From NCBI GenBank assembly GCA_017395215.1, contig JAFPVW010000014.1, positions 1 to 32,496 on the forward strand: 32,496 bases of DNA, read 5' to 3'. Origin of the DNA: Prevotella sp. (GTDB taxonomy: Bacteria; Bacteroidota; Bacteroidia; Bacteroidales; Bacteroidaceae). Below the pieces are notes generated by a model. That model was not told the origin of the DNA. It did not search any database and was given only the letters and a program-made list of their open reading frames with translations. The position numbers were made by a program, and so were the translations under genes. Position 1 is the stretch's first letter. Each line of letters begins with the position of its first letter. This document shows, in pieces, positions 4,830-31,314 of the stretch.

Positions 4830-5270
4830 TTAGTCTGGTTGGTATATCTCGCGTAGTGGTTTCATCACGAAGTCGCGCTTATGCATCAGCGGATGCGGTA
4901 TCTTCAGGTCGGGCTCGTCTACCGTCAGGTCGTCGTAGAGCAGGATGTCGATGTCGATGGGTCTGTCAGCGTACTGACGGTCAGACGACTTTTGGCTGAC
5001 GGTTAGACGGGTAGACTTTTTTTTCCGGCCCAAGTCACGCTCTATCTGCTGGGTCAGCGTCAGCACCTCACGTGGTGTCTTTGTTGTCTGGCACAGGATA
5101 ACGGCATTGAGGAAGTTATGGCAGGACTCAAAGCCCCACGGCTCGGACTCCATGAGCGACGACTGGCGAACAACCTGTCCCACCTTTTCCTGCACAAGTC
5201 GTACAGCATCTTCAATATTCTGCTGCCGATTGCCCAGATTACTTCCTAACCCCAAATATACCTTATGCAT
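4830..5270 (-). CDS. folK: 6-hydroxymethyl-7,8-dihydropterin pyrophosphokinase
   Basis: Transfers pyrophosphate from ATP to the hydroxymethyl dihydropterin in folate synthesis; cytoplasmic. The start MHKVYLGLGSNLGNR at 5270 is chosen because GLGSNLGNR is the conserved N-terminus; the upstream in-frame start would add only MAVRL. The signature DRPIDIDILLYDD and the downstream IPHPLMHKRDFVM segment are present. Total length is 146 residues. Between GRKKK and SSDRQYADRP the protein carries about nine residues (STRLTVSQK) whose DNA (4998-5016) is made of the same GTCTAACCGTC words that fill the spacer upstream of the gene, suggesting a tolerated repeat insertion. It is the last cluster gene after queA; GH28 follows. 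Confidence 0.93.
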   Translation of the reverse strand: MHKVYLGLGSNLGNRQQNIEDAVRLVQEKVGQVVRQSSLMESEPWGFESCHNFLNAVILCQTTKTPREVLTLTQQIERDLGRKKKSTRLTVSQKSSDRQYADRPIDIDILLYDDLTVDEPDLKIPHPLMHKRDFVMKPLREIYQPD

Positions 5271-5316
5271 GAGTCTAACCGCCAATATAGTCTAACCGTC
5301 TAACCGTCACATCAGT
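5271..5316. repeat. GTCTAACC word-repeat spacer between queA and folK
   Basis: The spacer contains AGTCTAACC (5272-5280), then GTCTAACCGTCTAACCGTC (5290-5308), then a degenerate AGTCTAATCGTC running into the queA stop. The same words appear on the opposite strand inside folK at 4998-5016. This is a degenerate tandem tract, not a recognised regulatory site. Confidence 0.6.
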
Positions 5317-6459
5317 CTAATCGTCGAGAATCAGCAGCGCATCGCCGAAGCATCCGAACTGATATCCCTTCTCGACTGCCTGCTCGTAAGCCTCGTAGAC
5401 GATGTCGTAGCCACCGAAGGCCGCCGTCAGCATCATCATCGTCGACTCCGGGTGATAGAAGTTGGCTATCATTGCATTGGCGAGTCCGAAGTCATAAGGC
5501 GGAAAGATGAACTTGTTGGTCCAGCCGTCGAAAGGCTTCAACAGTCCGTCGGTACCCACGGCGGTCTCCGTGGCGCGGGTCGTGCTGACACCCACTGTGC
5601 AGACGCGGTGGCCGGCCTGCTTGGTGTCGTTCACCAACTGGCAGCAAGCCTCGCCGATAATCATCTGTTCCGAGCTCATCTTGTGCTTCGTCAAGTCCTC
5701 CACCTCAATGCTGTCGAAACAGCCAAGGCCGCAGTGAACGGTCAGGTAGGCAAAGTTGAAGCCGCGAATCTCCATCATCTTCATCAGCTGGCGGCTGAAG
5801 TGCAGTCCAGTGGCAGGTGCCGTCACCGCCCCCTCGTTCTTGGCATAGATGGTCTGGAAGTTCTCCATATCCTCAGGCACCGTTGCCCGGCGGTCGACGA
5901 TGTAGCGCGGCAGCGGGGCAGCCCCCAAGGCAAAGAGCTCGCGCTTGAACTCGTCGTGGTCGCAGTCGTAGAGGAACCTCAGCGTGCGGCCACGGCTGGT
6001 GGTATTGTCGATAACCTCGGCAACCATCGGTCCGTCTTCCTCGAAGAACAGCTTATTGCCAATGCGTATCTTGCGGGCCGGTTCTACCAGCACGTCCCAC
6101 AGGCGCAGCTCAGCGTTCAGCTCACGCAGCAGGAACACCTCTATCTGGGCGTCGGTCTTCTCCTTGGTTCCGAACAGCCGTGCCGGGAAAACCTTCGTGT
6201 CGTTGAAGACAAAGGTGTCGCCCTCGTCGAAGTAGTCAACGAGATCACGAAACGACAGGAACTGGTCGGTATCGTTACCGTCGGAATCCTTCTTGTACAT
6301 CTCGATGGTCTGGCGCTTGCGGTGAATCACCATCAGGCGCGACTGGTCGCGGCTATAGATACGTTCTACCGTGCCATCTTCGTTTTCGAAGGTGCGGTGT
6401 GGCGGGAACAGCGCTACCTGCTCCTCTGGCAGCTGGAATCTGAATTGTGATAGTTTCAT
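5317..6459 (-). CDS. queA: S-adenosylmethionine:tRNA ribosyltransferase-isomerase
   Basis: Transfers the ribosyl moiety of SAM to the 7-aminomethyl-7-deazaguanine base in tRNA, giving epoxyqueuosine. The 380-residue protein has the expected QueA landmarks: VFNDTKVFPARLFG near residue 85, NEGAVTAPATGLHFS near 210, LTVHCGLGCFDSIEVEDL near 240, and GVSTTRATET near 295, ending with the Bacteroidetes-style GYQFGCFGDALLIL. It ends with TAG, showing that this codon acts as a normal stop in this genome. It lies 24 nt after truB and 46 nt before folK in the same transcription unit. Assignment is secure. Confidence 0.96.
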   Translation of the reverse strand: MKLSQFRFQLPEEQVALFPPHRTFENEDGTVERIYSRDQSRLMVIHRKRQTIEMYKKDSDGNDTDQFLSFRDLVDYFDEGDTFVFNDTKVFPARLFGTKEKTDAQIEVFLLRELNAELRLWDVLVEPARKIRIGNKLFFEEDGPMVAEVIDNTTSRGRTLRFLYDCDHDEFKRELFALGAAPLPRYIVDRRATVPEDMENFQTIYAKNEGAVTAPATGLHFSRQLMKMMEIRGFNFAYLTVHCGLGCFDSIEVEDLTKHKMSSEQMIIGEACCQLVNDTKQAGHRVCTVGVSTTRATETAVGTDGLLKPFDGWTNKFIFPPYDFGLANAMIANFYHPESTMMMLTAAFGGYDIVYEAYEQAVEKGYQFGCFGDALLILDD

Positions 6460-9293: not shown

Positions 9294-10058
9294 ATGAGTA
9301 CAATTATCTATCCGTCACCCATCTTCGGCCCTGTCAAGAGCCGCCGCTTAGGGCTGTCGTTAGGCATCAACCTGTTGCCTGCCGACGGCAAAGTGTGTAC
9401 CTTCGACTGCATCTACTGTGAGTGTGGCCTCAACAGCGAGAACCGCCCTACCCTGCCGCTACCTACGCGCCAGGATGTAGGACTCGCCCTGGGGCACAAG
9501 CTGCGCCAGATGGCTGAGCAGGGGCAGCGGCCCGACGTGCTGACCTTTGCCGGCAACGGCGAGCCCACGTGCCACCCCGACTTCGCCGCCATCATCGGCG
9601 ATGCCATCCAGCTGCGCGACCGCTTCTGTCCTACGGCCAAGGTGTCGGTACTGTCGAATGGCACCCAGATTCACCGTCCTGCCGTCCATGACGCGCTGAT
9701 GCTGGTAGACAACAACATCCAGAAGCTCGACACCATCGACCCAGAGTTCATCAACCGCGTCGACCGTCCCACTGGCGCCTACGATGTCAATGCCGTCGTC
9801 GAGCATCTGAAGACCTTCAACGGTCACGTCATCATCCAGACCATGTTCCTCTGCGGTCCAGACCTCGACAACACCACCCCACGATACGTGGATCCGTGGC
9901 TACAGGCTGTCTGCGACATCAAGCCCCAGCAGGTGATGGTTTACACCGTTGACCGCGAAACGCCCTACCGTTCGCTGCGCAAGGTCTCACGCCAACAGCT
10001 CGACGCCATCCGCGACAAGGTCATCGCCGCCGGCATCCCCTGCACGGCTTCTTACTGA
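9294..10058 (+). CDS. Radical SAM protein, COG0731-like
   Basis: A 254-residue protein with a canonical 4Fe-4S motif CTFDCIYCECG at about residues 37-47 (Cys-x3-Cys-x2-Cys) and the downstream radical-SAM blocks FAGNGEPTCHPDF (GGE-like SAM-binding motif) and VSVLSNGTQ. Overall it resembles the COG0731 Fe-S oxidoreductases related to wybutosine-type tRNA modification enzymes, but the substrate is not known. The start at 9294 (MSTIIYPSPIFGPV) is preferred over an upstream in-frame ATG at 9255, because the latter lies in the promoter and would add a non-conserved stretch. The last 7 nt overlap the 3' end of the GH3 gene on the opposite strand. Confidence 0.85.
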   Translation: MSTIIYPSPIFGPVKSRRLGLSLGINLLPADGKVCTFDCIYCECGLNSENRPTLPLPTRQDVGLALGHKLRQMAEQGQRPDVLTFAGNGEPTCHPDFAAIIGDAIQLRDRFCPTAKVSVLSNGTQIHRPAVHDALMLVDNNIQKLDTIDPEFINRVDRPTGAYDVNAVVEHLKTFNGHVIIQTMFLCGPDLDNTTPRYVDPWLQAVCDIKPQQVMVYTVDRETPYRSLRKVSRQQLDAIRDKVIAAGIPCTASY

Positions 10059-12466
10059 CCTTCCTTCAGCCTGAACCCGCATGTGCTCACGATGGCCGAT
10101 GATGAGGTACCGATGAGAGCCTCGAAGTCGCCGGGTTCGGCTGTCCATTGGCTGCTGCGGCCGTCGTAGTAGCTGAGGGCACGCTTGTCGATGGTCAGGC
10201 TGACGTTCTGCGTCTCGCCGGGCTGGAGGAAGACTTTCTGGAAGGCTTTCAGTTCCTTCACGGGGCGCTCTGCCTTTGAGTGCTTGTCGCTGATGTAGAG
10301 CTGGACGGTCTCGGCACCGGCCATTGAGCCAGTATTCGTCACGGGGACGGTGAAGGTAATCGTCTCGTCGGCAGTCATTACCGTCTTGTCAGCCGAAGCC
10401 TTGCCAAGCCTGAACGTCGTGTAGCTCAAACCGTGGCCGAAGGGGAACAGGGGAGCTGACTGTTTTACCTTTTTACCTTTTTCCTTTTTTACTTTTAAGC
10501 GGTCAACCCAGCGGTAGCCTACGAAGATGTCTTCTTTGTATTCTTCGTCTATCACAGCCTCCCCCTGGCCCCCTCCCGTAGAGGGGGAACTATTACGCCA
10601 TGTGCCTGGATAAGTATTCAGGGCGTGGGCACCACACTGGTCGAGCGAGGCATACCAGGTGAAGGGCAGCTTGCCCGAAGGATTGACATCGCCGAAGAGC
10701 ACGCTGGCAATGGCCTCGCCAGCCTCGGAGCCGATGAACCAGGCCTGAACGACGGCAGGTACCTTCGAGAGCCAGGGCAGGGCAATGCCGTTGCCGGAGA
10801 TGTTGACGAACACCAGACGGGGATTCACCTTCAGAATGGCCTCGACCACTTCGTTCTGCGCGTAGGGCATGTCGTAGGTCTTGCGGTCGTGCCCCTCACA
10901 GTCCTGATAGTCGCTCTTGTTGAGGCCGCCAATGAAGATGACGACATCGGCCTGGCGGGCCTTTTCCACAGCCTCAGCGGTGAGTTCGGCCTGTGAGCGC
11001 GTCTCATAGAGGGAGCGGCCGACGGTGACGCCGTTGTAGCTCTGAACGGTATCGCCGACATAGCCACGGGCGAAAGAAAGCCTCACCCCCTGCCCCTCTC
11101 CGACTGGAGAGGGGAGTAGATAGTCACGGCCGGTAACAGCACGCGAAATACCATCTAAAGGTAGAATTTCGCGCTGAGCTTTGAGCGAAGAGGAGCCGCC
11201 GCCGACGGTCATCATCTTGATGGCGTTCTCGCCCACCACAAGGATACGCTTGGTCTTAGAGCGGTCAATGGGCAGCAAAGCCCCCTCCCAACCTCCCCCC
11301 GTAGGGGAGGCTTTCCGCGCATCTGCTCCCCTCCCTACGGGGGAGGGGCTGGGGGTGGGGCTATTCTTCAGCAGCACGATGCCCTCCTGGGCAATCTTCA
11401 GGGCTGCTTCGTAGTGGGCGTCGGAGCAGAGGAAGCCGACGGGCTTGTTGCAGCGCATGGTGGTGCGGTAGAACAGTCGCAGCACGCGGCGCACCTTGTC
11501 GTCGAGCTCCTTCGTCGTGTAGCGGCCCTCACGGATTCCCTGCTTGTAGGCGTCGGCCAGGTAGTAGGCGTCGTAGGCGTTGGTTTTGCCCATCGTCAGT
11601 CCGTCGGTCCACGTGCCGAACTCCAGGTCGAGACCGTTGCTGACGGCCTCGTCGGTGCTGTGACATCCGCCCCAGTCGCTGATGACCACGCCGTCGAATC
11701 CCCAGTCCTGTTTCAGAATCTTGTTGAGCATCACCTCGTTATGGCAATTGTGCTGGTTGTTGTATAGGTTGTAGGCCCCCATGATGGCCCAGGCACCACC
11801 CTCCTGCACAGCCGCACGGAAGGCGGGCAGGTAGATTTCGTGGAGGGCGCGGTCGCTCACCTTGACGTTCACCTGGTGGCGGTATTCCTCGTCGTTGTTC
11901 AGGGCGTAGTGCTTGACGCAGGCGGCCACCCCCTTCGACTGCAGCCCCTGCACATAGGGAACGACCATGCGCGAGGCCAGCAACGGGTCTTCGCCCATGT
12001 ACTCGAAGTTACGGCCTCCGAGTGGCGTGCGATAGATGTTCACACCAGGTCCCAGAATGACGTTCTTGCCGCGATAGAGGGCCTCCTCGCCGAGGCTCTC
12101 GCCGTAGAGGCGTGCCATCGCGGGATTCCACGTGGCGGCCAGGCAGGTGAGTGCCGGGAAGGCCACGCACGAGTCGTTGGTCTGTCCGGCCTGCTCCCAC
12201 TCGTCCCAGAGCACGTCGGGCCGGACACCGTGTGGGCCGTCGTCGGTCCAAAGGTCAGGGAAGCCGAGGCGCTTCACGCCGGGGCTTGAGAACTTCGACT
12301 GCGCATGGATGACGGCAATCTTCTCATCGAGCGTCATACGCTGCAAAGCGTCGTCGATGCGCTGCTCAATGGGTTTTGACTCGTCGAGATAGACGGGCAC
12401 AGTCTGTGCTTGTAGCGGACTCAGGCTTACCAAGCCCGCTACTATTGTCAATACAACTTGTTTCAT
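10052..12466 (-). CDS. GH3 family beta-glucosidase carrying three palindromic-element insertions
   Basis: An 804-residue periplasmic exo-acting enzyme, expected to release glucose from beta-glucan oligosaccharides delivered by the neighbouring SusC/D system. The signal peptide spans residues 1-20. The N-terminal TIM barrel has KHYALNNDE (Lys185-His186) and the nucleophile motif GVVISDWGG (Asp264). The second domain carries CEGHDR, with Glu524 the likely acid/base. The C-terminal fibronectin-III-like domain follows PLFPFGHGLSYT. Relative to typical relatives of about 735 residues (from memory), the excess matches four inserted tracts: about 369-397, 449-463 and 625-637, encoded by GC-rich palindromic elements, and a Lys-rich tract at about 657-670 from a GGTAAAAA word repeat. 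All retain the frame. Last gene of the PUL, 3 nt after GH16. Confidence 0.93.
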   Translation of the reverse strand: MKQVVLTIVAGLVSLSPLQAQTVPVYLDESKPIEQRIDDALQRMTLDEKIAVIHAQSKFSSPGVKRLGFPDLWTDDGPHGVRPDVLWDEWEQAGQTNDSCVAFPALTCLAATWNPAMARLYGESLGEEALYRGKNVILGPGVNIYRTPLGGRNFEYMGEDPLLASRMVVPYVQGLQSKGVAACVKHYALNNDEEYRHQVNVKVSDRALHEIYLPAFRAAVQEGGAWAIMGAYNLYNNQHNCHNEVMLNKILKQDWGFDGVVISDWGGCHSTDEAVSNGLDLEFGTWTDGLTMGKTNAYDAYYLADAYKQGIREGRYTTKELDDKVRRVLRLFYRTTMRCNKPVGFLCSDAHYEAALKIAQEGIVLLKNSPTPSPSPVGRGADARKASPTGGGWEGALLPIDRSKTKRILVVGENAIKMMTVGGGSSSLKAQREILPLDGISRAVTGRDYLLPSPVGEGQGVRLSFARGYVGDTVQSYNGVTVGRSLYETRSQAELTAEAVEKARQADVVIFIGGLNKSDYQDCEGHDRKTYDMPYAQNEVVEAILKVNPRLVFVNISGNGIALPWLSKVPAVVQAWFIGSEAGEAIASVLFGDVNPSGKLPFTWYASLDQCGAHALNTYPGTWRNSSPSTGGGQGEAVIDEEYKEDIFVGYRWVDRLKVKKEKGKKVKQSAPLFPFGHGLSYTTFRLGKASADKTVMTADETITFTVPVTNTGSMAGAETVQLYISDKHSKAERPVKELKAFQKVFLQPGETQNVSLTIDKRALSYYDGRSSQWTAEPGDFEALIGTSSSAIVSTCGFRLKEGQ
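10461..10498. repeat. GGTAAAAA word repeat inside GH3
   Basis: On the coding strand this tract is a run of AAAAGTAAAAAAGG, AAAAAGGTAAAA and similar words, encoding the Lys-rich segment KVKKEKGKKVKQ just before the conserved PLFPFGHGLSYT motif. Similar A/G-rich words occur in the ftsX/DUF3098 spacer (8290-8325) and downstream of rpsO. It looks like a tolerated in-frame expansion. Confidence 0.6.
10557..10593. repeat. GC-rich palindromic element, single unit (copy C)
   Basis: AGCCTCCCCCTGG followed by a short stem CCCTC-CCGTA-GAGGG, 37 nt, inside the GH3 coding region. On the coding strand it gives the peptide SSPSTGGGQGEA. The sequence is related to the half-units at 11277-11362 and 31215-31314. 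The frame is preserved through it. Confidence 0.7.
11079..11118. repeat. GC-rich palindromic element, single unit (copy B)
   Basis: Contains CACCCCCTGCCCCTCTCC, a 4-nt loop GACT and GGAGAGGGGAGTAGATA. It closely matches the left half-unit at 25306-25344 in the RND gene, including the tail GAGGGGAGTAGATA. Stem bases differ in a compensated way (CTCTCC/GGAGAG here, CTCCC/GGGAG there). Coding-strand peptide: LLPSPVGEGQGVRL within GH3. Confidence 0.8.
11277..11362. repeat. GC-rich palindromic element, inverted pair of units (copy A)
   Basis: The left half (11278-11315) begins AAGCCCCCTCCC and ends GGGGAGGC after a CCCCC-cgta-GGGG stem. The right half (11320-11362), read on the other strand, gives CACCCCCAGCCCCTC and GAGGGGAGCAGATG. 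The two halves are inverted relative to each other. Together they encode roughly residues 369-397 of the GH3 protein (PTPSPSPVGRG then KASPTGGGWEG) with no frameshift. Confidence 0.8.
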
Positions 12467-22897: not shown

Positions 22898-24049
22898 ATG
22901 AAAACTAAATTATGCACTATAGGCACCGCCTTGTTGTGCCTATTGTCTGTTTCCTGCGCCAGCGAACAGAAGAAGGCACGGGGTGATGCTGCGCACTACC
23001 CTACAATGACCGTCACTACGCAGGACGTCACACTCAGCCAGCAATACAGTGCACGGCTGACCGGACGGCAGATTGTAGAGGTAAGGCCGCAAGTGACCGG
23101 AAACATCACGCGCATCTGTATCCGCGAGGGCGATGCCGTCAAGCGGGGACAGACGCTGTTCATCATTGACCAAGTGCCCTACCGCGCCGCCTTAGAGGTG
23201 GCCGTTGCCGCCCGCCGGAGCGCCGAAGCCAAACTCGCCACGGCACGCATGAACTACGAAAACGAGCAGCGCCTGCAGGAAGGCCTGGTCGTGGGCGACG
23301 TGTCGGTACAGACCATGCGCAATGCCCTGCTCGAAGCAGAGGCTGCCCTGGCTCAGGCCCGTGCCCAGGAGCGCAACGCCCGCTGGCAGCTGTCGTACAC
23401 CGAGGTGAAAAGTCCCGTCAGCGGTGTCGCCTCGATGATTCCCTGGCATGTCGGCTCACTCGTCAGCAGCAGTATCAGCGAACCGCTCGTCACCGTGGCC
23501 GACGACCACGAGATGTATGCCTACTTCAGCATCAGCGAGAACCAGGCCATCGACCTGATCAGCCAGTACGGCTCAATGGATGAGTTCATCCGCCAGGCCC
23601 CCGGCGTCGGACTCCTGCTGAGCAACGGCTCGGAATATCCGCGCAAGGGGCGCATCGATGCCGTCAGCGGAACCATTGATGCCTCAACAGGTGCCGTCGA
23701 GATACGCGCCACCTTCCCCAACGACGGCCACCTGCTCCACAACGGCGGCAGCGGCAAGGTCATCGTCTCCACCCACCGCAAGGACTGTATCGTCGTGCCT
23801 CAGGAGGCTACCTACGAACTGCAGAACCGGACTTTTGTCTACAAGGTCGTCGACGGCAAGACAAAGGCCACGCCGGTTGAGACATTCCGGCTGAACAACG
23901 GCCGCGAGTACGTCATAGACAAGGGCTTGACGAAGGGCGACGTCATCATAGCCGAGGGTGCCGGTCTGCTAAAGGACGGCATTGAGGTCAAGAGCGAAAA
24001 CGAGAAACCGGAACATCGAAATACCGAAACTTCGAAACATCGAAAATAA
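22898..24049 (+). CDS. RND efflux periplasmic adaptor (membrane fusion protein), lipoprotein
   Basis: A 383-residue adaptor that bridges an inner-membrane RND pump and an outer-membrane channel. The lipobox is SVSC (Cys20). Domain order is as expected: the barrel-sandwich half-motif GRQIVEVRPQVTGNITRICIREGDAVKRGQTLFIID (about 56-92), an alpha-helical hairpin rich in Ala/Glu/Arg (about 98-160), the second lipoyl half with YTEVKSPVSGVASMIPWHVGSLV, the beta-barrel, and a membrane-proximal domain with CIVVPQEATYE. The last 15 or so residues (EKPEHRNTETSKHRK) are encoded by a degenerate CGAAACATCGAAA word repeat. It is divergent from the regulator. The transporter gene begins 7 nt later. Confidence 0.93.
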   Translation: MKTKLCTIGTALLCLLSVSCASEQKKARGDAAHYPTMTVTTQDVTLSQQYSARLTGRQIVEVRPQVTGNITRICIREGDAVKRGQTLFIIDQVPYRAALEVAVAARRSAEAKLATARMNYENEQRLQEGLVVGDVSVQTMRNALLEAEAALAQARAQERNARWQLSYTEVKSPVSGVASMIPWHVGSLVSSSISEPLVTVADDHEMYAYFSISENQAIDLISQYGSMDEFIRQAPGVGLLLSNGSEYPRKGRIDAVSGTIDASTGAVEIRATFPNDGHLLHNGGSGKVIVSTHRKDCIVVPQEATYELQNRTFVYKVVDGKTKATPVETFRLNNGREYVIDKGLTKGDVIIAEGAGLLKDGIEVKSENEKPEHRNTETSKHRK

Positions 24050-24056
24050 CAAAGAG

Positions 24057-27000
24057 GTGAACGTCAAGACATTCATAGACAGGCCGATATTGTCCGGTGT
24101 GATAAGTGTGCTGATGGTGCTGGTAGGCATCATCGGACTGAGTCAGCTCGCCCTGGAGCAGTTCCCGGAGATAGCGCCGCCGACGGTGCGCATCATGGCC
24201 AGCTATACCGGCGCCAATGCCGAGACGGTGCAGAAGAGCGTCATCGTGCCACTCGAGGAGGCCATCAACGGCGTCGAGGGCATGATGTATATGACGTCCT
24301 CAGCCTCAAACAACGGCACAGCCTCCATCGGCATCTTCTTCCGGCAGGGCACCGACCCCGACATGGCGATGGTCAACGTGCAGAACCGCGCCGCCACCGT
24401 CCAGGGCCGCCTGCCGAGCGACGTGGTGAAGAGCGGACTGACGGTGCGCAAGCGCCAGACGTCGAACATCAAGCAGCTCAGCGTCTACAGTCCCGACTCG
24501 ACCTTCGACCGCTCGTTCCTGGCCAACTATACGAAGATTAACATCGAGCCGCGCCTGAGCCGCATACCCGGCGTCGGCGAGGTGAACGTCATGGGTGCCG
24601 ACTACTCCATGCGCATCTGGCTCGACCCGCTGAAGATGGCGCGCTACGGGCTGACCCCCGCCGACATCACCCAGGTGCTCAGCGAGCAGAACGTCGAGGT
24701 GGCCACGGGCACCCTCGGTGCCGAGAGCCAGAACACGTTCCAGTATGTGCTGAAGTACCGCGGCCGCTACGAGGACGAGGAGGGCTACCGAAACCTCGTC
24801 GTCCGCTCACTGCCCGACGGCAACGTGCTGCGCATCGGCGACATCGCCCGCGTGGAACTCGGCTCACAGAACTATAACATCATCGGCGAGACCAACGGCC
24901 GCCCGGGCGTGAACATCAGCATCAACCAGGTGGCAGGCTCAAATGCCAACGAGATTATCAAGCAGATTGACCGCGAGGTGGAGGACATCCGCCAGTCGCT
25001 GCCGCCGGGCGTCGTCATCGAGGACATTGAGTCGAAGAAGGACTTCCTCGACGCCTCCATTGCCAGCGTTCTCGAGACCTTGGCAGAGGCCCTCCTGCTG
25101 GTCATCCTCGTGGTGTTCGTCTTCCTGCAGAGCTGGCGCGCCACCATCATCCCCGCCATAGCCATCGTCGTCTCGCTCGTGGCCACGCTGGCCGTCATCT
25201 ATGCCATCGGCTTCTCGCTCAACATGCTGACGCTCTTCGCCCTCGTGCTCGTCATCGGTACCGTCGTCGACGACGCCATCGTCGTGGTCGAGGCCGTAGA
25301 AGCAAAGACCCACCCCCAGCCCCTCCCTATAGGGAGGGGAGTAGATACCTCTTTCGATAAAATGACTGACAGTAAAAGTAACTACTCCCCTCCCTTACAG
25401 GGAGGGGTCGGGGGAGGGTCTGCGGGGCTGGTTGCCGCCGCCATGCACAACATCACGTCGGCCCTCGTCACGACGACCCTCGTCTTCATGGCCGTCTTCG
25501 TGCCCGTCTGCTTCATCGGTGGCGTCACCGGCACGTTCTACACCCAGTTCGGCCTGACGATGGCCATCGCCGTCGGCATCTCGCTCTTCAACGCCCTGAC
25601 GCTCTCGCCGGCGCTCTGCGCGCTGATTATGAAGCCGGGGAATGGGGATAATGGGCAAAGTGGGCAGAATGGGCATTCCGGTTTCGCTGCTAAATTCAAC
25701 GCCGGCTTCGCGGCCCTTGTCAGCCACTACAAGCATTCGGTGACGTCGACGCTGCACCACCCCCGCCTGGCCGTTGTTGCCGTCGTGGCGGCCATCGCCC
25801 TTTTGGGCTGGTTGATGCGCACGACGAAGACCGGTCTCGTGCCCAACGAGGACATGGGCACCGTCTTCATCAATGTCCAGGCCTCGCCGGGCAGCAGCCT
25901 GCAGCAGACCTACCATATATTAAAAGAGGTGGAGGAGCGCATCAAGGACCTGCCGCAGCTGCGCATCTACTCGCTCATCGCCGGCAACAGCAACAACTTC
26001 GAGCAGTCGTCGTCGAACGGCAACTTCACCCTCAAGCTCAAGAAGTGGGACGAGCGCACCGCCAAGGGCGACGACGTGCAGAGCGTCGTCGACGAAATCT
26101 ACCGCCGCACCGCCGACATTGCCAACGCCAAGATACAGGTGAACACGCAGAACATGCTGCCGGGCTTCGGCCGACTGAACGGCTTCGAGCTGCACGTGCA
26201 GGACAAGCACGGCGGCACCATCGACGAGCTGCTCGCCCAGACCAACCGCCTCATAGCCGCGCTGAACGAGCGCCCCGAGATCAGCCGCGCCTTCACCAAC
26301 TTCTCGCTGAAGTACCCGCAGTACCGCGTCGAGGTCGACGCCGCCCTCTGCAAGCGGCGCGGCGTGTCGCCCAGCGACGTGCTCGCGGCCCTCAGCGGCT
26401 ACATCGGCGGCTCCTACGCCTCCAACTTCGTGCGCTTCACCAAGCTCTACCGAGTCATGGTGCAGGCCTCGCCCGAGTACCGTCTCGACACGGAGTCGCT
26501 CAACAACATCTTCGTGCGCAACGCCCAGGGCGAGATGTCGCCCGTCGGCCAGTACCTGCGGCTGACGCGCATCTACGGCTCCGAGACGCTCTCGCGCTTC
26601 AACCTCTTCCCCTCCATCCAGGTGGGCGGAACGGCCGAGGCAGGCTACAGCAGCGGACAGGCACTCGACGCTATCCGCGAGACGGCTGCCGAGGTGCTGC
26701 CCGAGGGCTACGGCTACGAGTTCGGCGGCATGGCCCGCGAGGAGGCCTCGGCCCAGAACACCACTGCCCTGGTCTTCGTCGTCTGCATCGTCTTCATCTA
26801 CCTCATCCTCTGTGCCCTCTACGAGAGCCTGTTCATACCGCTGGCCGTCATCCTGAGCGTGCCCTTCGGACTGGCCGGCTCGTTCCTCTTCGCCCAGTTG
26901 TGGGGACTTGAGAACAACATCTACATGCAGACGGGACTCATCATGCTTATCGGACTGCTGTCGAAGACGGCCATCCTGCTCACGGAGTACGCCTCCGAGC

Positions 27001-27269
27001 GCCGCCGTCAGGGCATGAGCATCGTCGCCGCAGCCCTCGATGCCGCAGCCGTCCGACTGCGTCCCATCCTGATGACCTCGCTGACGATGGTCTTCGGTCT
27101 GCTGCCCCTGGCCCTGGCCACGGGCGTGGGTGCCAACGGCAACCGCTCGCTCGGCGTGGGCGTCATCGGCGGTATGCTCATCGGCACCGTAGCCCTGCTG
27201 TTCATCGTCCCTGCGCTGTTCGTCATCTTCCAGACCATTGAGGAGCGTGTGTTCCACAGGCGTCAGTGA
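24057..27269 (+). CDS. RND (AcrB/HAE1-like) multidrug efflux transporter with loop insertion
   Basis: A 1070-residue inner-membrane proton-drug antiporter. The GTG at 24057 (MNVKTFIDRPILSGVIS once initiated) is chosen: it follows the adaptor stop by 7 nt and yields the conserved N-terminus, whereas the ATG at 23982 would overlap the adaptor by 68 nt and add repeat-derived residues. RND landmarks are QFPEIAPPTV, the TM4 proton-relay GTVVDDAIVVVEAVEAK (Asp405, Asp406), PVCFIGGVTGTFYTQF, the second-half NTTALVFVVCIVFIYLILCALYES and GLENNIYMQTGLIMLIGLLSKTAILL. About 38 residues (417-455) in the cytoplasmic loop after TM4 come from a paired palindromic element, and a Gly/Asn/Gln tract near residue 530 comes from an AATGGGCA word repeat. 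Catalytic Asp residues and downstream helices are intact, so it is probably functional. No channel gene follows. Confidence 0.93.
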   Translation: MNVKTFIDRPILSGVISVLMVLVGIIGLSQLALEQFPEIAPPTVRIMASYTGANAETVQKSVIVPLEEAINGVEGMMYMTSSASNNGTASIGIFFRQGTDPDMAMVNVQNRAATVQGRLPSDVVKSGLTVRKRQTSNIKQLSVYSPDSTFDRSFLANYTKINIEPRLSRIPGVGEVNVMGADYSMRIWLDPLKMARYGLTPADITQVLSEQNVEVATGTLGAESQNTFQYVLKYRGRYEDEEGYRNLVVRSLPDGNVLRIGDIARVELGSQNYNIIGETNGRPGVNISINQVAGSNANEIIKQIDREVEDIRQSLPPGVVIEDIESKKDFLDASIASVLETLAEALLLVILVVFVFLQSWRATIIPAIAIVVSLVATLAVIYAIGFSLNMLTLFALVLVIGTVVDDAIVVVEAVEAKTHPQPLPIGRGVDTSFDKMTDSKSNYSPPLQGGVGGGSAGLVAAAMHNITSALVTTTLVFMAVFVPVCFIGGVTGTFYTQFGLTMAIAVGISLFNALTLSPALCALIMKPGNGDNGQSGQNGHSGFAAKFNAGFAALVSHYKHSVTSTLHHPRLAVVAVVAAIALLGWLMRTTKTGLVPNEDMGTVFINVQASPGSSLQQTYHILKEVEERIKDLPQLRIYSLIAGNSNNFEQSSSNGNFTLKLKKWDERTAKGDDVQSVVDEIYRRTADIANAKIQVNTQNMLPGFGRLNGFELHVQDKHGGTIDELLAQTNRLIAALNERPEISRAFTNFSLKYPQYRVEVDAALCKRRGVSPSDVLAALSGYIGGSYASNFVRFTKLYRVMVQASPEYRLDTESLNNIFVRNAQGEMSPVGQYLRLTRIYGSETLSRFNLFPSIQVGGTAEAGYSSGQALDAIRETAAEVLPEGYGYEFGGMAREEASAQNTTALVFVVCIVFIYLILCALYESLFIPLAVILSVPFGLAGSFLFAQLWGLENNIYMQTGLIMLIGLLSKTAILLTEYASERRRQGMSIVAAALDAAAVRLRPILMTSLTMVFGLLPLALATGVGANGNRSLGVGVIGGMLIGTVALLFIVPALFVIFQTIEERVFHRRQ
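25306..25421. repeat. GC-rich palindromic element, inverted pair of units (copy D)
   Basis: The left unit 25306-25344 starts AGACCCACCCCCAGC and ends GAGGGGAGTAG. The right unit 25382-25421 is its near-exact reverse complement, and 37 nt of unrelated sequence separate them. Each unit is itself a small hairpin (CCCCTCCC-tata-GGGAGGGG). The 116 nt are read through in frame as part of the RND cytoplasmic loop, giving PQPLPIGRGVDT and SPPLQGGVGGGS. Confidence 0.85.
25641..25679. repeat. AATGGGCA word repeat inside the RND gene
   Basis: A degenerate tandem of AATGGG(G/C)A and AGTGGGCA words, encoding GNGDNGQSGQNGHSG in the loop between the first-half transmembrane bundle and the second half. Loops at this point vary in length in RND pumps, so the expansion is probably neutral. 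Confidence 0.55.
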
Positions 27270-28279: not shown

Positions 28280-28391
28280 GTTTCACTAATTGTCATTCGC
28301 ACTTTTCATCCTACACTTCCTACACTCCCAACACCTAACCGCATATTCATACATTTGGCGAATGTTTATGCAATCGCTGTAAGGCGTCGCC

Positions 28392-28475
28392 AAAAGGCGG
28401 CGCCTTTTGCCCAAAACCCGGCGCTTTTCAGTCAAAACCCGGCGCCTTTTGGACAAAAAGTGCCGCGCTTTTCCG
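28392..28475. repeat. Four tandem 21-nt units with palindromic cores
   Basis: Units begin at 28392, 28413, 28434 and 28455, each AAAA followed by a G/C-rich core such as CCCGGCGCCTTTT. The first unit contains AAAAGGCG-G-CGCCTTTT, a near-perfect palindrome. Units 2 and 3 are nearly identical, and unit 4 is diverged. There are no unique spacers and no cas genes, so this is not a CRISPR array. Confidence 0.75.
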
Positions 28476-31214: not shown

Positions 31215-31314
31215 AAGCCCCTCTCTTATCCCCCCGAGGGGGGAGGCCGCAACAGGGGCGAGGGCCTATGTGACTAATAAGCCTCCCCATCAGGGGGAGG
31301 TTGGAGGGGGCTTC
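31215..31314. repeat. GC-rich palindromic element, inverted pair of units (copy E)
   Basis: The left unit (31215-31247) starts AAGCCCCTC and contains CCCCCC-ga-GGGGGG. The right unit (31281-31314), read on the other strand, gives GAAGCCCCCTCCAACC and GGGGAGGC, matching the left half of copy A in GH3. It fills the whole spacer between the tolC-like stop and the lpxA start. The tolC stop codon (31313-31315) overlaps the element's edge, so the element may have supplied the stop. Confidence 0.8.

Follow-up and report, generated by a model that had tools for sequence, protein, structure and literature searches.

Hairpin units translated in frame within a Prevotella beta-glucosidase-like gene probably belong to a REPIN-like mobile element

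The 32,496-nucleotide stretch of Prevotella sp. DNA analysed here (contig JAFPVW010000014.1, assembly GCA_017395215.1; hereafter the window) contains a GH3 beta-glucosidase-like ORF of 804 aa (10052..12466, minus strand) that hosts palindromic sequence at three insert sites, A, B and C. Its reading frame continues uninterrupted for 804 codons across all three, and GH3 N, GH3 C and Fn3-like domains are recognized in it by Pfam. The question raised by this locus is what the palindromes are and how they came to be read as protein. Where the first-pass annotation described three palindromic elements translated in frame, the three in-frame sites stand, but the number of elements rises to four, one site being an inverted pair. 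All four are C-rich hairpin units. Unit C (10557..10596, plus strand; sequence taken by eye) is single, is read as NSSPSTGGGQGE at residues 625-636 and is missing from homologues. Unit B (11077..11121, plus strand; profile E 2.3e-10) is also single, is read as YLLPSPVGEGQGVR at residues 449-462 and is shared with the relative G393. Site A (residues ~369-396) is a heads-out pair of two different families in inverted orientation: the first unit (11278..11313, plus strand) has a head of the AAAGCCCCCTCCCAACC... family, is read as ASPTGGGWEGA and gives no match to our unit profile, and the second (11320..11365, minus strand; profile E 1.8e-9) is read as NSPTPSPSPVGRGADA. In a fourth loop of the ORF (window 10469-10500, residues ~659-672) lies an A-rich repeat read as KVKKEKGKKVK; in relatives the corresponding loop holds heptamer repeats or, in L067, a palindrome.

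Exact copies of the unit core, CACCCCCNGCCCCTC, number 48 in the 3.6 Mb assembly, a draft of 211 contigs with 5.9% contamination, and matches with at most one mismatch number 118. The reversed control matches once. Because of this difference, the in-frame palindromic units are confirmed not to be a product of chance, and the further genomic copies anticipated from the window are present. Three parts make up a unit: the head, which is C-rich (AGACCC, AGCCTC or AGCCCC, then ACCCCC or similar), the hairpin, mostly 8-9 bp long, and the AGTnnnTAC tail. Among 193 distinct units from genomes G000, G368 and G246, the inner 7 bp of the stem are 99.1% paired (188 units), compared with 84.0% when the arms are re-dealt. 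Head and stem types are linked, 72 GACC heads going with CTCCCT and 39 GCCTC heads with CTCTC. Units read forward give peptides such as SPTPSPSPVGRG or THPQPLPVREG, and those read in reverse give STPLPHREGQG or SPPLQGGVGGGS. For the AAGCCCCCTCC type of the first-pass annotation, a stricter pattern matched 1 of 388 fetched loci. Our profile, built from 45 seed units, identifies 117 units in 71 clusters among the near-match places listed, which are 100 of the 118 and were all covered except C132:5422 and C168:1417; some of the listed core places have no profile match. In a separate family with CTGACCCC heads, the spacers of L003 and L014 resemble each other (CCGCAGAAAGYCCGC), and the arrangement in L167 and L224 is tails-out.

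Are the GH3 tracts additions to this protein? None of 80 GH3 homologues, mostly from uncultured Prevotella or Prevotellaceae, has the inserts of the window (named records, recounted over all; L106 does not cover site C). Together with the 118 near-matches, this bears out the initial proposal that the palindromes form a family whose members can be translated in frame. The same positions vary in other ways: L034 has inserts of similar length but other sequence at A and B, L077, L082 and L107 have such inserts at C, and different palindrome-like peptides occupy site A in L041, L045, L049 and L065. One of the eight closer relatives (L247-L254), G393 (locus L248), carries unit B at the matching site; A and C in the form seen in the window occur in none of the eight. 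The solved GH3 homologue 8va7 lacks all three stretches. Its lack of them and the natural length variation at the A columns lend indirect support to a location of the inserts in surface loops.

Two further pairs lie in the window. An RND efflux permease ORF (ACR_tran, 1095 aa; 23982..27269, plus strand) contains a pair whose whole span, 25304-25421, is translated in frame; its profile-matched left (25304..25350, plus strand) and right (25376..25421, minus strand) units are read as AKTHPQPLPIGRGVDTS and KSNYSPPLQGGVGGGSA, respectively. In the 24 of 29 RND loci that could be parsed, G368 has a pair with a different spacer in the same loop, and in other relatives the loop is short or contains heptamer repeats or other palindromes. 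The RND pair has no match in phages and a single 38-nt match in plasmids (Sphingomonas). The second pair is intergenic: its left unit (31215..31247, plus strand) belongs to another family and was recognized by eye only, and its right unit (31274..31310, minus strand) is of the same family as 11278-11313 and 84% complementary to that unit. No Rfam family reaches its gathering threshold in the window.

Repeats of other kinds are also present. Positions 4990-5030 and 5280-5320 hold inverted heptamer-type repeats (CTAACCGT and its complement) with 26-nt arms that are 88% complementary; they lie within, and beside the start of, an ORF that we take to be FolK-like, and resemble the inverted heptamer arrays found in G417 at the start of another gene. 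Three CAAAACCCGGCGCCTTTTGG-type repeats are spaced at 21 nt in an intergenic region (28391-28458). Elsewhere in the assembly, a second RND permease stretch (G000:C161:10878-14012) is 86% identical to that of the window, with three stop codons within the match, and may derive from another strain, given the assembly contamination of 5.9%.

The arrangement of units is strongly biased. The 71 clusters of this genome comprise 36 plain heads-out pairs, 1 tails-out pair, 2 same-direction pairs, 29 single units and 3 larger groups; one of the 36, formed by B and A of the window, in fact comprises two sites, the profile missing the first A unit. By distance, neighbouring units are heads-out in 25/31 cases at <60 nt, 11/11 at 60-130 nt and 4/5 at 130-260 nt. 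In 40 stretches from G368 and G246, 36 of 44 clusters are plain heads-out pairs, although these stretches were picked from full-length alignments and are therefore biased toward whole composites. The same pair with the same or a near-identical spacer is found on different G246 contigs (L345 and L346; L354 with L355 and L356), and because copies of one pair and one spacer occupy different places, this comparison supports movement of the pair as a block. The anchor distance in 34 G368 and G246 pairs is 105-107 nt in 25, 117-119 nt in 8 and 140 nt in 1; pair sizes in the window's own genome vary widely, more than in G368 and G246. Target duplications of 2-9 nt are not evident at 72 pairs, the counts never exceeding the control.

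How often are the units translated? A codon-usage test places 38 of 74 clusters in this genome within an ORF and in a single reading frame. Of the others, 14 have two coding flanks that do not share a frame, 11 have one coding flank, 7 have none and 4 are located at contig edges. Inspection by eye adds at least five in-frame clusters, GH3 unit B included. The units show no preference for genes in this genome, because 38 of the 70 scorable clusters are in frame, compared with 773 of 1000 random stretches that look coding under a looser test. In frame are also 20 of 20 scored clusters in G368 and 16 of 20 in G246, with 4 edge clusters excluded. Both orientations are used about equally (37 forward and 33 reverse among 70 units read in frame). 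In 11 of 36 pairs in this genome, the units enclose the first ATG of the downstream frame, and the second of them is translated. The in-frame hosts include the RND permease of the window and an ORF with four clusters. The latter, at L149, is a 1621-aa ORF that we take to be GltB-like; the same locus has an ORF, presumably DapF-like, that carries a pair.

Comparison with relatives of these two ORFs gives both shared and empty sites. The sequence between the units in the DapF-like ORF is native, being aligned by the unit-free orthologue L219, and so is that between the units at GltB-like residues 179-235, aligned by the unit-free orthologues L211, L220, L223 and L224. A foreign-cargo spacer is ruled out for both of these pairs. 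Both DapF-like units are also present in G425 and both GltB-like units in G246 and G368. At GltB-like residues 1310-1366, G412 has a nearby pair of another family in the opposite arrangement. At L151, the two units enclose what is natively the start of a membrane-protein gene; of these units, G425 has the coding one only, and in G417 the corresponding places are occupied by inverted heptamer arrays. The counterparts of L147 and L150 are unit-free gene junctions in L265, L266, L268, L290 and L298, and G368 has a pair with a different spacer at the L150 junction. The bracketing units are present or absent together in the comparable DapF-like and GltB-like cases, the exception being L151 in G425. 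Native sequence between some paired units is not what block insertion would be expected to leave, and we found no explanation for heads-out pairs around native segments or start codons.

Of 301 genomes in the family, 55 contain exact cores, spread over 13 of 30 genera and numbering up to 75 per genome; within the genus their distribution is patchy (0 to 75 per genome). A candidate mobilizing protein was first noticed as weak PF01797 matches in carriers and then searched for, in an association set that had been picked by copy number before the protein was known: 14 rich genomes (at least eight exact copies; G143, with 9, excluded) and 23 poor genomes (none or one). Of the 14 rich genomes, 10 have this HUH transposase-like protein, against 2 of the 23 poor ones (p 1.4e-4), or 3 of 23 if a marginal match in G108 is counted (p 8.5e-4); these p-values overstate the support because the genomes are related and not independent. 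Within the genus, the figures are 7 of 8 rich and 1 of 14 poor genomes (2 of 14 with G108). Among five more carriers that lack an exact count, the protein is found in G368, G393, G425 and G320 and not in G412. The correspondence is imperfect in both directions: G178, G115, G149, G100 and G412 carry elements and give no HUH match, and the protein occurs in G014 (no element) and G056 (one copy).

The protein is 350-450 aa long, with DHxH and YLxDNP motifs and a conserved C-terminal domain without a Pfam match. H127, H129, Y208, N212 and P213 are invariant in 23 aligned members, and most have the C-terminal domain. Known families recognize it weakly. One member scores 38.8 bits against NF047646 (REP-associated tyrosine transposase, NCBIfam; cut-off 80), four members give 12.3, 17.7, 12.3 and no match against PF01797 (cut-off 23), and a six-frame PF01797 search scores members in G010, G164 and G233 just above that cut-off (24.2, 23.6 and 23.7 bits) and a second G233 member at 21.9 bits. 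The HUH part has weak matches to solved transposases (E 0.02). No row in the available text of Table 1 of PMC6006769 combines the DHxH and YLxDNP motifs, and by the motifs of that table the protein apparently constitutes an undescribed subclass. Of 34 HUH loci, some overlapping one another, only 2 have units within the flanks that were fetched. A pattern-based scan of viral contigs yielded no relatives, and plasmids gave one weak match. Long tandem peptide repeats of variable length occur in the HUH-Y linker or at the C-terminus of the L138, L374, L381 and L388 proteins.

An ordinary RAYT was also considered as the mobilizer and rejected: PF01797 matches are found in 8 of 14 rich and 9 of 23 poor genomes (p 0.33), three of those eight being weak matches to the larger HUH family, and no unit was found by pattern at any of 30 PF01797 loci. 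The PF01797 genes L031 and L032 of the window's own genome lie between inverted repeats of their own (of GGGGACTGTCCCC type and GGGGTCGGTTCCGGT type), which by eye are unrelated to the units.

We consider it probable, if by no means certain, that the GH3 inserts arose as copies of a miniature, REPIN-like mobile element that moves as a block, is tolerated in frame and is mobilized by an HUH enzyme. Two units stand heads-out around a short spacer and would form a block of ~117 or 129 nt (a length derived from the anchor distances plus the heads) that inserts as one without target duplication. Readability in frame would allow copies to survive in tolerant loops as translated parts of working proteins, as shown by comparison with unit-free orthologues, and single units such as B and C may be remnants or one-unit insertions. 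The most likely mobilizer is the HUH/Y1 transposase-like protein, which, to judge from its co-occurrence and motifs, would act on single-stranded hairpins. The peptides themselves would be tolerated passengers, no evidence of a peptide function having been found. Comparison demonstrates the translated insertions, the unit families, the pairing, copies of one pair in several places, patchiness, shared and empty sites and HUH co-occurrence; single-strand mobilization by the HUH protein, the passenger role and the exact block length are inferred. An extended form of this proposal, possible but rather doubtful, is that a new HUH subclass drives a REPIN-like element fitted to genes, one insertion of which can bracket a native segment or start codon. 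Block lengths of ~117 or 129 nt are multiples of three and, with readable frames, would fit life inside genes.

Several other explanations can be weighed against a REPIN-like element. Local copying by replication errors, such as template switching or slippage at hairpins, would require no transposase, and the pairs would be quasi-palindromic copies of one insert. It would accord with the inverted heptamer arrays of G417 at the gene start where the window's own genome has inverted units, with L018 and L344, where head and arm are repeated in tandem, and with the similarity of paired units, which exceeds that of random ones also at separations of at least 60 nt (0.56 vs 0.44, 14 pairs). We nevertheless regard it as unlikely: the same families recur at 71 clusters, one spacer is found on different contigs, 7 of 14 long pairs have mixed head types, and copying does not account for the excess of heads-out over tails-out pairs. 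A MITE of a DDE transposase that fits reading frames by chance is a poorer candidate, and we give it little credence; its inverted ends and length of ~120 nt would suit, whereas the lack of target duplications (2-9 nt) at all 72 pairs and the hairpin within each end would not.

Selection might instead keep the peptides as improvements to their hosts, or the hairpins might regulate translation. The peptide, its frame and its family vary between sites and species, and the same loops in relatives hold heptamer repeats or nothing, which makes this improbable despite the cross-species sharing of the GltB-like and DapF-like sites and of unit B, and despite the start codons between units in 11 of 36 pairs. 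An artefact of low-complexity sequence or misassembly might be suspected in a draft of 211 contigs with 5.9% contamination, but is already refuted by the 118 matches against 1 in the control and by orthologous units in other assemblies; its probability is negligible.

If a REPIN-like element is indeed responsible, mobile DNA hairpins of Prevotella-like bacteria from gut and rumen reside in genes that still function, where they are translated as extra protein loops. In-frame spread of palindromes is documented mainly in Rickettsia and Wolbachia, and Prevotella provides a second case; the available text of a 2024 review (PMC10969869) calls a similar process in other prokaryotes "conceivable", and in the accessible parts of the literature searched we recognized no description of in-frame palindromic elements in Prevotella or Bacteroidales. 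In the Prevotella case, unit-free orthologues are available for comparison, the species represent different stages, the hosts include conserved enzymes and a candidate for the mobilizing enzyme can be named, so that the in-frame spread of elements and the usefulness of the resulting loops become testable questions. Should the more tentative proposal of a gene-fitted element with its own HUH subclass hold, Prevotella proteomes would be undergoing remodelling loop by loop.

How does the element compare with known systems? The RPEs of Rickettsia and the WPEs of Wolbachia, as described in the available text of PMC3767692 and PMC10969869, are palindromic repeats of ~100-150 bp that form several families and lie in frame in the ORFs of unrelated genes. 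The Prevotella element has the same size, family structure and in-frame placement, and like them it occupies the same sites in orthologues, with different families at one hot spot. It differs in its phylum, its GC-richness, its two heads-out hairpin units and its HUH co-occurrence. With REP, BIME and REPIN sequences, according to the available text of PMC3116915, PMC3733652 and PMC6006769, it shares short hairpins, inverted units with a variable spacer, head-and-stem families and a lack of duplication; a doublet moving as a unit is likewise indicated by the comparison of one pair and spacer on different contigs. REPs are described there as mostly extragenic, whereas the Prevotella units are often in genes and in frame (38/74 clusters in the window's genome and 36/40 scored clusters in G368 and G246). 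Units read by eye have no GTAG/CGTC tag before the stem, AGTAG sequences occurring only after it, and, unlike in REPINs, the transposase gene mostly has no units in its flanks (0/30 PF01797 and 2/34 HUH loci with units). The candidate enzyme resembles the RAYT/TnpA-REP proteins, which are HUH Y1 transposases, in the HUH and YxxNP motifs invariant in the 23 aligned proteins; its length of 350-450 aa, its DHxH and YLxDNP motifs and its C-terminal domain without a Pfam match set it apart from those in the available text of Table 1 of PMC6006769. By build and placement rather than by membership, the Prevotella element is REPIN- or BIME-like in architecture and RPE-like in its translated outcome.
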